Positions 30,831-35,121 of a stretch of 44,247 nt of DNA are shown one piece after another. The notes beneath the pieces were generated by a model that was given only the letters and a program-made list of their open reading frames with translations, was not told where the DNA came from and searched no databases. Each line of letters starts with the position of its first letter. The stretch's first letter is position 1. The DNA is taken from assembly GCF_900142515.1 (NCBI RefSeq), contig NZ_FRBC01000026.1, forward strand, positions 1-44,247. The letters run 5' to 3'. The DNA comes from Pseudoselenomonas ruminantium (GTDB taxonomy: Bacteria; Bacillota; Negativicutes; Selenomonadales; Selenomonadaceae). A program made the position numbers and the translations under genes.

Positions 30831-32947
30831 AATGCGCCTCCAAAGAGTTTCGCTATGCGCTCGTTGACACTTTTATCGAGGGCGAAGAATTCTTGGGCCA
30901 GTTCGTCGCTGGCTTTGGGTGGCACATATTTGTAGAAGTAGCGGGTGAAGGGAATCTCGGCACCGGTCTTGATGACGGGTTTTTTCTTACTCATATCTTC
31001 TTCGAAGAAGGCTTTGGCGTCGGGGATATGGGGGAGGACTTCCCGGGTCATATAGTCGTCGATATTTTCCTCGAAGGGGACAATCTCCGTGTCTTTGGTT
31101 TCCTTGTCATAGATAATGTTGCCTTTGCGGTCACGCTGGATTTCGGCAGTTTTATCCATCAGGGACAGGCCGTCCATAATTTTGCTGAATAAGGTTTTGT
31201 TTACGGCCAGTTCTACGGCATGCGGTTTCAAGACCGCTTTGAGGATTGGCTCGAATTCCTTCGGGGACAGGTAGAGCGTGTCAGAGACAGAGTTACGCAG
31301 GGTGGTAACGATATCCTCGTAGAGTGGTTGTCCGCCTTCAAGTGTATCCAGCTTTTTCTTGTCTTTGTCTGACAGGTCTTCTTTAGCTTGCAGTTCCGCA
31401 ATTTTGCCTTCATCGTATATGCTGTTTAAGGAACCTTTTGCCAACATATTCTCGATGCGCTCCTTATTGATGGCATAGCTGCGCTGCAGGGGTTGCATGA
31501 CGGCGTACTCACGATACATGAACTCCGTATTACGGAATATCTTGCTATTCTCGTTTTCGGTGAAGTCGGCATAGAGTTTGACAATAGCCTCACGGTCCTC
31601 GGCGGTAATCTCGTTGCGTTTCTTGCCTAGGGACTTACGCAGAACGTGATATAGCTGGGTGGCATCAATCAGCTGGACTTTTCCCTGACGTTCTTCCCGT
31701 TTGTTTTTGGACAGAATCCAGATATAGGTGGCGATGCCGGTGTTATAGAAAAGGTCGGTGGGCAGGGCGATGATGGCTTCGATTAAGTCATGCTCTAACA
31801 TATAGCGGCGGATTTGACTCTCACCGGAGGCGGTGCCACCAGCAAAGAGGGGGCTGCCGTTCTCGATGATGGCCGCACGGCCATTGGTATCGTCCATTTT
31901 ATCGATGGCCGACTGCATGAACAGCAGCTGCATGTCGCCGGTGCCAGGTAAGCCAGCCATAAAGCGGCTATGTGCTTTGTCGAATTCATCTTTTACAGCG
32001 GATTCGACACCTTCAGAAGCATCTTTGCCGCCCCAGGATTGACCAAAAGGAGGATTTTCGATGACGAACCTCATTTTTTGTCCAGGAAAGCTATCGGTTT
32101 TCATGGTATCGACATGCTGAACTTTATCGGCATCCTCGCCCTTAATCAGCATTTCCGCCACACACATGGCGAAGGATTCCGGGTTTATTTCCTGGCCGTA
32201 TAGTTTGACCTCTGCCGTGTTGTTGAAGCGTTTAATCCAGTTGTAGGAGGTGGAGAGCATGCCGCCCGTACCGCAGGCCTGGTCCAGCACGGTAACTACC
32301 TTGTGGTCATCAAAGATATCGTCGGCACCTTCGGCTAGGAGAATCTCCACCATGACTTTGATGATATCACGACCGGTGTAGTGGTCACCGGCTTCAGCAT
32401 TTTCAGAGAAACGGCGAATGAGGTCTTCAAAGATATAGCCCATCTTTACATTGTCAATAATCGCCGGGTTCAAATCCACATTTGAGAAAGCATCCACCAC
32501 ACCATATAAGCGGTTATGCTTATCCATTTTGATGATTTCCTTCTCGAACTCCAGATTGGCAATGATGTCTTTGACATTCTGGGAGAAGCCCTGCAAATAC
32601 GATTTGAAGTTTTCTGCAATGTTAGCCGAGTCATTCAGCAGCTCATTTAGGGAAAGACGGCTTTTGTTGTAGAAGGAATAACCAGCGGCTTTATAGAGAA
32701 CCTTGTCTGGTATGTTGGGATTGGTACTGACCATCTGCAGCACAGCAGGTTTGGTCTTCTCTAAGGCACATTCAAAGCGGCGGATGATGGTCATGGGAAT
32801 GATGACGTTCTTATACTTATCGCTCTGGTAAGGGCCACGTAACTTGTTGGCGATAGACCAGATGAAGTTGACTTCTTCGGTGACATCCACGGGAGCATCG
32901 TCCCAGATTACGTTTTGCATCGTGTGCTTCAAGTCTTGTGATTGCAT
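30827..32947 (-). CDS. hsdM: Type I DNA methyltransferase subunit (HsdM)
   Basis: A 706-residue adenine-N6 methyltransferase. The N-terminal helical domain (about 20-150) precedes the SAM fold, with motif I VLDQACGTGGMLSTS (about 224-238) and catalytic motif IV NPPFGQSW (about 298-305). The length exceeds the usual 500-odd residues, mainly by a C-terminal extension (about 520-706) with many charged residues that may contact HsdS or HsdR. ATG 32947 follows GGAGG with 7-base spacing. It is the first gene of the operon, with its own promoter at 33035-33063. Confidence 0.94.
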   Translation of the reverse strand: MQSQDLKHTMQNVIWDDAPVDVTEEVNFIWSIANKLRGPYQSDKYKNVIIPMTIIRRFECALEKTKPAVLQMVSTNPNIPDKVLYKAAGYSFYNKSRLSLNELLNDSANIAENFKSYLQGFSQNVKDIIANLEFEKEIIKMDKHNRLYGVVDAFSNVDLNPAIIDNVKMGYIFEDLIRRFSENAEAGDHYTGRDIIKVMVEILLAEGADDIFDDHKVVTVLDQACGTGGMLSTSYNWIKRFNNTAEVKLYGQEINPESFAMCVAEMLIKGEDADKVQHVDTMKTDSFPGQKMRFVIENPPFGQSWGGKDASEGVESAVKDEFDKAHSRFMAGLPGTGDMQLLFMQSAIDKMDDTNGRAAIIENGSPLFAGGTASGESQIRRYMLEHDLIEAIIALPTDLFYNTGIATYIWILSKNKREERQGKVQLIDATQLYHVLRKSLGKKRNEITAEDREAIVKLYADFTENENSKIFRNTEFMYREYAVMQPLQRSYAINKERIENMLAKGSLNSIYDEGKIAELQAKEDLSDKDKKKLDTLEGGQPLYEDIVTTLRNSVSDTLYLSPKEFEPILKAVLKPHAVELAVNKTLFSKIMDGLSLMDKTAEIQRDRKGNIIYDKETKDTEIVPFEENIDDYMTREVLPHIPDAKAFFEEDMSKKKPVIKTGAEIPFTRYFYKYVPPKASDELAQEFFALDKSVNERIAKLFGGAL

Positions 32948-33034
32948 TCAAAAGCCTCCATATCATGAAAACAGCTGTCATCCCTGACGTATGATATTTA
33001 TCATAGGCCAAGCAACTATTATAATCTTTTATTA

Positions 33035-33063
33035 ATTATAATTCTGGTAATTTTAGTAGTCAA
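33035..33063 (-). promoter_or_regulatory. Promoter of the hsdMSR operon
   Basis: On the minus strand TTGACT (33063-33058) and a perfect TATAAT (33040-33035) are 17 bases apart, about 88 bases before hsdM. It shows that the structured region beyond 33064 is not part of the hsd leader. Confidence 0.75.
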
Positions 33064-33065
33064 TA

Positions 33066-33324
33066 AATTAGCTCTTGCATTTTAAAAGCATTTGCCAACA
33101 ACTCAGGCAGATGTTAGAATAGGCGTATAGAAGGTGCCGCCCAGCGGTTGCACTCACAGTAGTAAAAACTTTATAACTTAAACCGCCACAGTTTAGTCGC
33201 TAGAGCGGTTTATCCAAAGGTAACGATTTATAAGCGGATAAGCTTGGCCAACAGTCTCCTTTATCGAAAGCAGCAGCCGAAGGCTTTCATGTATCTGATT
33301 CGGAATGGAAAGGCTTATCCAAAA
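33066..33324 (-). ncRNA. Structured RNA-like region, unidentified
   Basis: No gene fits here. Several helices are possible: 33236-33243 with 33313-33320 (8 bp, long range), AAACCGC/GCGGTTT at 33180-33186 and 33205-33211, a GAAAGC/GCTTTC hairpin near 33269-33290, and a GCGG/CCGC hairpin near 33140-33155. On the minus strand the GAAAGC hairpin contains C(UUCG)G, a loop typical of structured RNA, so I favour that strand. It sits between the hsd promoter and the IS605 left hairpin. It could be an orphan guide-RNA scaffold of an IscB-like element; that identification is a guess. Confidence 0.35.
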
Positions 33325-33420
33325 CGCCGTAAAACCCCTAACTTTAGTTATGGGGGTTTACGGCGTGTCCACCGAATTTACGTAGGTAATTGAAGGTGGA
33401 CAATTACTTTTTAACTTGTG

Positions 33421-33449
33421 TTGTATTAGCTTTCTTAAAGTTGTATAAT
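33421..33449 (+). promoter_or_regulatory. tnpA promoter immediately before the start codon
   Basis: TTGTAT (33421-33426) and TATAAT (33444-33449) are 17 bases apart, and the tnpA ATG is only 7 bases after the -10. The message would start at or next to the AUG. Confidence 0.5.
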
Positions 33450-33455
33450 ACAAAC

Positions 33456-33866
33456 ATGGGAGAAATAAAATATCATTCAAGCCACAATATCGTATATTCA
33501 TGTAAGTACCATATCGTGTTCTGTCCCAAGTACCGCAGAAAAGTGTTGGTCAATGGCGTTGACACCAGACTAAAGGAGCTGGTCAAGTCAATCTGTGAAG
33601 AAATCCAAGTCGATGTAATCGAAATGGAAATCATGCCAGACCATGTGCATCTTTTACTGGAGGTTCACCCGCAGTTCGGTGTTCACAAAGCCGTAAAGAC
33701 TATCAAGGGCAAGACCTCTCGCATCTTGAGGCAGGAATTTCCATGGCTGACAACTAAACTGCCTAGCCTATGGACAAACAGCTATTTTTGCTCCACTGTC
33801 GGTGGTACTCCGCTTAACATCGTGAAGCAGTATATCGAGAGCCAGAAAACATCGCAAAGGAAGTGA
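33456..33866 (+). CDS. tnpA: IS200/IS605 transposase TnpA (Y1 HUH)
   Basis: A 136-residue single-strand transposase. The HUH motif is PDHVHLLLE (HVH, about 65-69), and the nucleophile tyrosine is in IVKQYIESQ (about 127). The N-terminal KYHIVFCPKYRRKVL is typical of the family. ATG 33456 has no Shine-Dalgarno; an in-frame start at 33390 lacks family sequence. It cuts and joins single-stranded ends during replication. All key residues are present, so the element may be active. tnpB starts 4 bases after the stop. Confidence 0.93.
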   Translation: MGEIKYHSSHNIVYSCKYHIVFCPKYRRKVLVNGVDTRLKELVKSICEEIQVDVIEMEIMPDHVHLLLEVHPQFGVHKAVKTIKGKTSRILRQEFPWLTTKLPSLWTNSYFCSTVGGTPLNIVKQYIESQKTSQRK

Positions 33867-33870
33867 GAAA

Positions 33871-34992
33871 ATGGACAAGTACACAATGGGCTTCAAATTC
33901 AGAATATACCCGAACCATGCCCAGCAAGAACGCATTAACCATACTCTGGGATGTTGCCGATTTGTGTTCAATCATTTTCTCGCCATCCGTAGAGATGAAT
34001 GGACTGCAAACCATAAGTCTGTAACCTACAATCAGACAAGTGCTATGCTGACGGACTTGAAAAAGTATAAGGAGTATAGCTGGCTGAAAGAGGTAGACAG
34101 CATGGCATTGCAGGAGTCTTTGAAGAATCTCGACACAGCATACCAGAATTTCTTCAAACACCAAGCAAAATACCCGCGCTTCAAATCCAAGCATAACCAT
34201 CGCCAATCCTACCGCACCAGGAATCAGAGCAAAGGCGTCCGTATCGTAGGGAATCGAATTAAACTGCCAAAAATCGGAACTGTGAAAATCAAGCAGAGCC
34301 GTGAATTTGACGGGCGAATCCTCAATGCTACAGTCGGCCGTAATGCTTCTGGCAAGTATTTTGTGTCTTTGTGCGTAGAATTGGACAGGGGAATTTTGCT
34401 CAAGACCAATGACGGCGGAGAAATAGGCATTGACGTGGGTTTAAAGGAGTTCTATTCAGACAGCAATGGAAATACTGTTGCCAATCCCAGAATCCTGCGG
34501 CGTCTGACTAGAAAGCTCGCGCGAGAACAAAGACGGCTTTCTCGAAAAATGCCAAGGTCTGTGAATAGGGATAAGGCTAGAAGCCGTGTTGCCAGAGTTC
34601 ATGAACGTATAGCTAATATCCGCAAGGATTTTCTACACAAAACATCTGCGGCATTGGTTAGACAGAACAAGACTATAGCCATAGAACACCTGCAAATCAA
34701 GAACATGATGAGAAACCACAAGTTAGCTCGTGCCATATCGGACGTAAGCTGGTCTGAGTTCTTCCGTCAGCTTGAGTATAAGGCAGAATTGCATGGCTCC
34801 GAAGTCTTGAAGGTAGATACGTTCTACCCGTCCAGTCAGACTTGCTCGAAATGCGGACACCAGAACGTGGAGACTAAAAATCTTGGTGTCAGAAAGTGGA
34901 TTTGCCCCGAATGTGGTTCGCATCATGACCGAGATACCAATGCTGCTGTAAATATACTGCGAAAGGCACTTGAACAAAAACAGGTTGCCTAA
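33871..34992 (+). CDS. tnpB: RNA-guided nuclease TnpB
   Basis: A 373-residue TnpB, ancestor-type relative of Cas12. The N-terminal KFRIYPNHAQQERI domain is followed by a RuvC nuclease with its three acidic residues: IGIDVGLKEF, IAIEHLQIKNM and the HDRDTNAAVNIL Asp. A zinc ribbon (CSKCG and CPECG) lies between the last two. It should use an RNA transcribed from the right end of the element to cleave the empty donor site. Nothing is truncated. It overlaps the start of that guide RNA at its 3' end. Confidence 0.94.
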   Translation: MDKYTMGFKFRIYPNHAQQERINHTLGCCRFVFNHFLAIRRDEWTANHKSVTYNQTSAMLTDLKKYKEYSWLKEVDSMALQESLKNLDTAYQNFFKHQAKYPRFKSKHNHRQSYRTRNQSKGVRIVGNRIKLPKIGTVKIKQSREFDGRILNATVGRNASGKYFVSLCVELDRGILLKTNDGGEIGIDVGLKEFYSDSNGNTVANPRILRRLTRKLAREQRRLSRKMPRSVNRDKARSRVARVHERIANIRKDFLHKTSAALVRQNKTIAIEHLQIKNMMRNHKLARAISDVSWSEFFRQLEYKAELHGSEVLKVDTFYPSSQTCSKCGHQNVETKNLGVRKWICPECGSHHDRDTNAAVNILRKALEQKQVA

Positions 34993-35121
34993 CATAAATC
35001 AGTACCGTGGGGCACACGGGAATTCACGCTTGGGGAGAACGTGTAAGTCAGTCTGGCTACGGTCAAACCGCAGTGTTCATCGAACCAAGAATCCCCTGCC
35101 TTTAGGCATGGGGAGTGTCAA
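34900..35121 (+). ncRNA. Candidate omega-RNA at the IS605 right end
   Basis: In this family the guide RNA is made from the tnpB 3' end and right end. Here the right end carries the hairpin at 35093-35113, and the RNA guide would begin just after the GTGTCAA at 35121. The scaffold limits are inference from family knowledge. Confidence 0.4.

Follow-up and report, generated by a model that had tools for sequence, protein, structure and literature searches.

The region at 33066-33324 of the window (the whole stretch of 44,247 nucleotides of Pseudoselenomonas ruminantium DNA that was analyzed) is a scar of unrelated pieces rather than a guide RNA. Our explanation of the whole, which we hold at a probability of about 80%, is that the antitoxin half of a type I toxin-antitoxin locus survives in this scar, in decayed form, at 33082-33219 on the plus strand. 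A sequence-only reading had described the region as a structured RNA on the minus strand with no gene. Its observation is partly confirmed and its interpretation partly supported. There are indeed zero ORFs of at least 60 aa overlapping 33066-33324, and its suggestion of a new ncRNA is borne out to the extent that 33082-33219 matches a small RNA family; the match is on the plus strand, covers about half of the proposed length, and is a degenerate copy.

Comparison with other genomes breaks the region into pieces, with homology ending at ~33067, ~33213, and ~33315-33319, and it is not the one feature that it had been taken for. The leftmost piece, 32948-33067 (minus strand), is the upstream region of hsdM, whose product has N6_Mtase and HsdM_N domains. 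In genome searches it is 78% identical to locus L009 of genome G021, up to 33067. A promoter scan places a promoter-like TTGACT-17-TATAAT match (11/12) at 33063-33035 on the minus strand; as the sequence-only reading correctly stated, this is beyond the region in the minus sense. The next piece is the degenerate antitoxin-type small RNA gene, matched by our covariance model R1 at 33082-33219 of the plus strand (homologous core 33084-33213; 83.9 bits, E 6.9e-17). It is followed on the plus strand by an in-frame internal fragment of a gene for a ~639-aa protein (33213-33318), an open frame with zero stops that has 87-88% DNA identity to the protein-gene interior in loci L007 and L008. The homologues of the fragment lie inside a 639-codon ORF of G002 and inside the homologous ORF of G014; the protein match covers 33208-33330 (query residues 321-361, 85% identity). 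The protein has no Pfam match at E<=0.001. A protein search of the window's own genome found no other copy of the fragment, which speaks against its being a copy of a gene elsewhere in that genome. The rightmost piece is an IS200/IS605 element on the plus strand, whose shared part (33315-34999) begins with a TTAT target and then the IS left end. It contains hairpin arms at 33324-33338 and 33352-33366 (repeat scan), tnpA within an ORF at 33390-33866 (Y1_Tnp), and tnpB at 33871-34992 (OrfB_IS605, Cas12f1-like_TNB). A second copy on contig C49 of the same genome is 95.4% identical over 1685 bp, up to the end of the locus, and has sequence in common with the window from 33315 onward only; the TTAT(C) present in both is probably the IS target. 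No similarity to the C49 copy extends left of 33315, which places the region outside the IS. Positions 34993-35117 run from the stop codon of tnpB to the likely IS end, where elements of the IS605 type would be expected to have their omega RNA. A phage or plasmid origin of the region was rejected: blastn of 32948-33324 against phage and plasmid collections gave only chance matches of 30-34 bases. An intact module had zero blastn matches in either collection, and a family peptide had zero matches in plasmids.

The two structural marks of the sequence-only reading are real as strings of letters. The minus-strand C(UUCG)G is present as GCC-UUCG-GGC at 33276-33284. Because 33213-33318 is the inside of a protein gene, this UUCG consists of codons (CAG CCG AAG GC), and its bases are kept as codons in L007 and L008. 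The 8-bp pairing of GGATAAGC (33236-33243) with GCTTATCC (33313-33320) also exists. It spans the junction of gene and IS, two of its bases (33319-33320) come from the IS side of that junction, and it is absent from L007 and L008, which have GGATAAGT and CTTATGC or CGTATGC. The minus strand is not unusually structured: its MFE is -61.6 vs -62.0 ± 4.7 in shuffles (z 0.07), and 104/200 shuffles were equally stable or better. The plus-strand fold of 33066-33324 is weakly above its shuffles (z -1.79, 7/200 equal or better). Together, the shuffle test and the homology breaks rule out a single folded RNA over 33066-33324. Rfam had zero matches to the whole window at gathering score; for 32940-33460, a limit relaxed to E 5 added only miRNA and carA lines at chance level. 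On these searches, a guide RNA or another known RNA was rejected for want of a credible match.

The plus-strand core (33084-33213) is a member of a dispersed family of ~130 bp, with blastn matches in 9 other genomes of the genus. The eight founding copies have a plus-strand promoter, TTGCCW-17-TATAAT or TAAAAT, inside an inverted repeat. Downstream of it lies a predicted RNA of ~95 nt with a GC-rich 5' hairpin, a terminator stem, and a T-rich tract. In the window, the promoter reads TTGCCA-17-TAGAAT (33092-33120, plus strand) and the inverted repeat AGCATTTGCC-N9-GGCAGATGTT (33087-33115) is the small-RNA promoter hairpin. Alignment to the family shows a partly altered 5' hairpin, GGTGCCGCCCAGCGGTTGCAC (33133-33153, plus strand), and a terminator stem T1 (33179-33212, plus strand) whose U-tract, present in relatives, has been lost (TTTATCCAAAGG). 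Model R1, built from 8 intact copies, has matches at E<=0.01 in 84/151 genomes sampled from the taxonomic family, 16 of the 21 other genomes of the genus among them.

The helices of this RNA covary. Among 73 distinct aligned rows (alignment A2, which includes a few secondary matches), 92% of cells are paired under the model structure and two-sided changes number 218 vs 51 ± 5.5 in shuffles, figures that lean towards the model structure because A2 was fitted to it. Slid-structure controls had 34-47% of cells paired and 23-41 two-sided changes. The terminator helix has two-sided changes in 10/10 pairs. With the eight founding rows alone, RNAalifold finds two-sided changes in only 3/31 pairs. In Rfam, the loci tested had no toxin-antitoxin RNA match, and two tRNAs in L029 were the sole matches of any kind. 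The U-tract after T1 is mainly on the antitoxin strand, with 4.9/8 vs 1.4 on the toxin strand in the first 28 modules and 4.6/8 vs 2.1 in all 56. T1 does not look bidirectional for this reason, and the idea of a bidirectional T1 was dropped by the U-tract alone. After the promoter hairpin, T2, the U-tract is on the toxin strand (5.7 vs 1.8 on the antitoxin strand in the first 28 modules; 5.0 vs 1.9 in all 56). T2 is often weak or missing in distant members. Read on the minus strand, the inverted repeat at 33087-33115 is probably the terminator hairpin T2 of a lost toxin mRNA. A protein operator was also considered for the AGCATTTGCC repeat; it is less likely than a terminator because the pairs change on both sides and a toxin-strand U-tract follows.

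In most founding copies, a short ORF with a Shine-Dalgarno sequence (for example MNELIVVLLLILLILIEIKK) is found on the opposite strand just beyond the terminator; L010 (= L040) is a founding copy without it. Such an ORF was counted if it was hydrophobic, 15-30 aa long, preceded by a Shine-Dalgarno sequence, and located on the opposite strand beside the terminator. The sample was the 71 listed R1 hits down to E 7.7e-7 and three further hits from the window's own genome. Of these 74, 2 duplicates (leaving 72 unique) and 2 copies with too little downstream DNA were excluded. The ORF is present in 56/70 copies, with a length of 18-24 codons. This count replaces a stricter first count of 44/70: longer toxins extend into the terminator, so the search window was widened; the Shine-Dalgarno window gained one base, and the controls were repeated with it. 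The controls gave 0/70 on the RNA's own strand, 0/72 upstream on either strand, 1/68 (minus) and 0/68 (plus) further downstream, and 0.4 per set in shuffles. Among the 14 copies that lack the ORF by these criteria are the window's own copy and two weak hits in the same genome, and others have a spurious or decayed look; the weak model matches L068 and L100 look spurious. A small hydrophobic ORF beside a predicted antisense RNA gene, as in type I systems, is thus a property of the family, and the window copy has no such ORF.

The ORFs evolve as coding sequence. In 71 comparable, non-independent pairs among 50 distinct toxin genes, there are 291, 56, and 481 differences at codon positions 1, 2, and 3, and 59% of the codon changes are synonymous vs 24% expected for random single changes. 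The peptides tested have no match above the cut-off in Pfam or NCBIfam (one chance NCBIfam line at E 0.23). In folds of the leaders of 43 distinct toxins, the Shine-Dalgarno sequence is often in the 3' arm of a hairpin, as seen by eye and uncounted.

We propose that intact relatives would make two convergent transcripts. One would be the antitoxin RNA of ~95 nt, from a promoter whose -35 and -10 are in the arms of the inverted repeat. The other would be an mRNA of the opposite strand for a membrane peptide of 18-24 aa, with its Shine-Dalgarno sequence held in a leader hairpin; this mRNA would read through the antitoxin gene and end at T2, the antitoxin promoter hairpin. Since the same DNA encodes both, the antitoxin would be complementary over its whole length to the 3' part of the toxin mRNA, and from this complementarity we infer that it would silence the toxin by blocking translation or by triggering decay of the mRNA. 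In such an interlocked layout, with the toxin mRNA ending at the hairpin that holds the antitoxin's -35 and -10, every round of toxin transcription would also cross the toxin's own antitoxin gene. Cognate specificity of RNA-RNA pairing was tried and came out negative: duplexes of the antitoxin 5' part with the cognate toxin leader are not better than mixed ones (-30.2 vs -29.7), with 298/2000 permutations as good. They are modestly better than duplexes with shuffled antitoxin (-27.0). The window copy would have lost its toxin gene and its antitoxin U-tract to the fragment of another gene, beside which the IS200/IS605 element would have inserted, presumably in that order.

The window copy lacks the toxin ORF and the antitoxin U-tract (1/8 T after T1), and 8/52 of its near-invariant bases are substituted. 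By comparison, 26 other rows that retain the 5' block have 0-6 substitutions, and three further rows without the 5' block have 14-15 changes, nearly all of them gaps there. On these alignments, we take the window copy for a decayed, toxin-less antitoxin relic that would be inert at present. It may still be transcribed because most of its promoter is kept (10/12 with a -10 of TAGAAT and TG before it), and its RNA would not end properly because the U-tract is lost. A working orphan antitoxin, which neutralizes related toxins that arrive or remain (anti-addiction), would also account for the kept promoter, and a further module with a putative toxin, L066, is present in the same genome. That possibility also gains from toxin-less L040, which is nearly unchanged (142 bits, 1/50 near-invariant bases differing) and is apparently a maintained orphan antitoxin. 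Against it are the lost U-tract, the eight changed bases, and the antitoxin of L066, which is strongly different (30.7 vs 83.9 bits for the window copy), and we regard a working role for the window copy as unlikely. Since L040 has hardly changed without its toxin, orphan antitoxins as such may be more than debris. The L040 antitoxin gene is at L040:1469-1607 (G006:C29, minus strand), where the opposite strand enters other DNA.

Other readings concern the family as a whole. The toxin reading rests on architecture and sequence, and the locus could instead pair a convergent regulatory RNA with a gene for a small membrane protein that is not toxic and has a regulatory or structural role. We doubt this, given that the size, hydrophobicity, lysine-rich end, and hidden Shine-Dalgarno sequence, as well as the convergent RNA, multiple copies per genome, and tandem copies, are marks of type I systems (partly general background, partly PMC7472228), and that a relative outside the class, L151, resembles Hol_Tox below the cut-off. 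Less probable still is that the ~130-bp element is a short non-autonomous mobile repeat (MITE-like) and not a toxin-antitoxin gene. Its dispersal, several copies in some genomes, inverted repeats, and the same start base in 13 of the 14 significant blastn matches in the genus would suit a mobile repeat; its conserved promoter, terminator with a directional U-tract, RNA covariation, and adjoining ORF that evolves as coding would not. A minus-strand guide scaffold of the IscB/TnpB type, or another large RNA, was suggested by the adjoining left end of an IS200/IS605 element with tnpA and tnpB. We give it next to no weight in view of the C49 copy, whose shared sequence begins at 33315, the empty Rfam searches, the minus-strand z of 0.07, and the location of both structural marks in the protein-gene fragment or at its junction.

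The spread of the family was assessed with a broader model, R2, at E<=0.001 for order and class. It has matches in 96/189 genomes of the order, with all listed carriers in the window's own family, and in 89/250 genomes sampled from the class, 41 of them in other families. A looser ORF test was passed by 7/12 order and class loci (5/10 in other families); L137, L141, and L142 fail it and have, by eye, a longer, less hydrophobic ORF. In a sample of the phylum, 9/149 genomes have matches, 3 in the same family and 6 in other families; two of these 6 were inspected and both have a small opposite-strand ORF by eye. Control genomes outside the group gave 0/4 and 0/41, in sets without a positive genome, so that this empty answer shows little. 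A pattern search gave 16 matches, of which 12 are in Selenomonas or Anaerovibrio, including S. ruminantium ATCC 12561 and A. lipolyticus DSM 3074 (Selenomonadaceae, class Negativicutes), and the other 4, in unrelated organisms, are probably due to chance. Two more distant modules are present in the window's own genome: L066 (G000:C27:67793-67951), which encodes MNDTTLQLLLIWLIIMTMKKK, and L067 (G000:C27:95134-95284), which has a different small ORF by eye, ending in a GYMLGKD-type peptide like L135 and L150. A second copy at L073:401-563 (G012:C72:19165-19327), 400 bp from an intact one, is cut inside the terminator by an apparent insertion-element end (GACCCCCATAAGTTAGACC). Closely spaced model matches, ~150-520 bp apart, were also seen in L101, G114:C83:5927-6547, and G034:C87:10905-11349.

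By analogy, the nearest layouts would be par/Fst and, from general background, txpA/RatA and holin-like loci. In txpA/RatA, bsrG/SR4, and Hol_Tox loci, the overlap of antitoxin RNA and toxin mRNA is in the 3' part of the latter, as is predicted here. Hol_Tox (PF16935) differs in that it has no match to 13 family peptides, which are short (18-24 aa). A genome outside the class (G488) has an RNA-model match, L151, beside a 28-aa Hol_Tox-like peptide (16.1 bits, cut-off 23.3, E 0.01). This locus may link the family to the holin-like type I toxins already known, and because its peptide resembles Hol_Tox below the cut-off, the family may shade into that group. Ibs/Sib of Escherichia coli has a very short, almost purely hydrophobic peptide, an antisense RNA, and several copies, and in these respects it is like the family. 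Sib RNA lies opposite ibs over the full length of that gene, whereas the antitoxin gene of the family lies beside the coding region, 3' of it. The pAD1/Fst family par (RNA I-Fst / RNA II), as presented in PMC7472228, shares with our family a convergent toxin mRNA and antisense RNA, a small hydrophobic peptide with a charged tail, and a 5' stem-loop of the toxin mRNA that hides the Shine-Dalgarno sequence (here by eye, in many of the 43 leaders). The shared terminator region and the similar short motifs at both 5' ends are also alike (PMC7472228). The PXXXG motif of Fst (PMC7472228) is absent by eye from the peptides of the ORF count. The terminator of par is bidirectional, whereas here the U-tract of T1 is mainly on the antitoxin strand and T2 carries that of the toxin strand; the repeated 5' motif is direct in par and inverted in the family. 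The loci tested have no Rfam match to the Fst/par family.

Fst toxins are described as ubiquitous in Firmicutes, and holin-like toxins are placed among small membrane proteins, in PMC10903887, whose main text makes no mention of Selenomonas, Veillonella, or Negativicutes. Within the portion of the literature that was covered, no work was found on type I toxin-antitoxin systems in Negativicutes, Selenomonas, Veillonella, or Megasphaera. The family is apparently undescribed, and a prior entry in T1TAdb or in the 2010 survey of type I families is possible. We put at about even the odds that this is an undescribed, class-wide type I family with an interlocked layout, in which toxin-less copies (the window copy and L040) are orphan antitoxins left by toxin loss.

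The region itself is a scar, and explaining it led to a family in which very short toxin-like genes are paired with RNA antitoxins. If confirmed, this family would put type I toxin-antitoxin pairs on the map of the Negativicutes, and it would offer a compact example of one hairpin shared by a promoter and a terminator.
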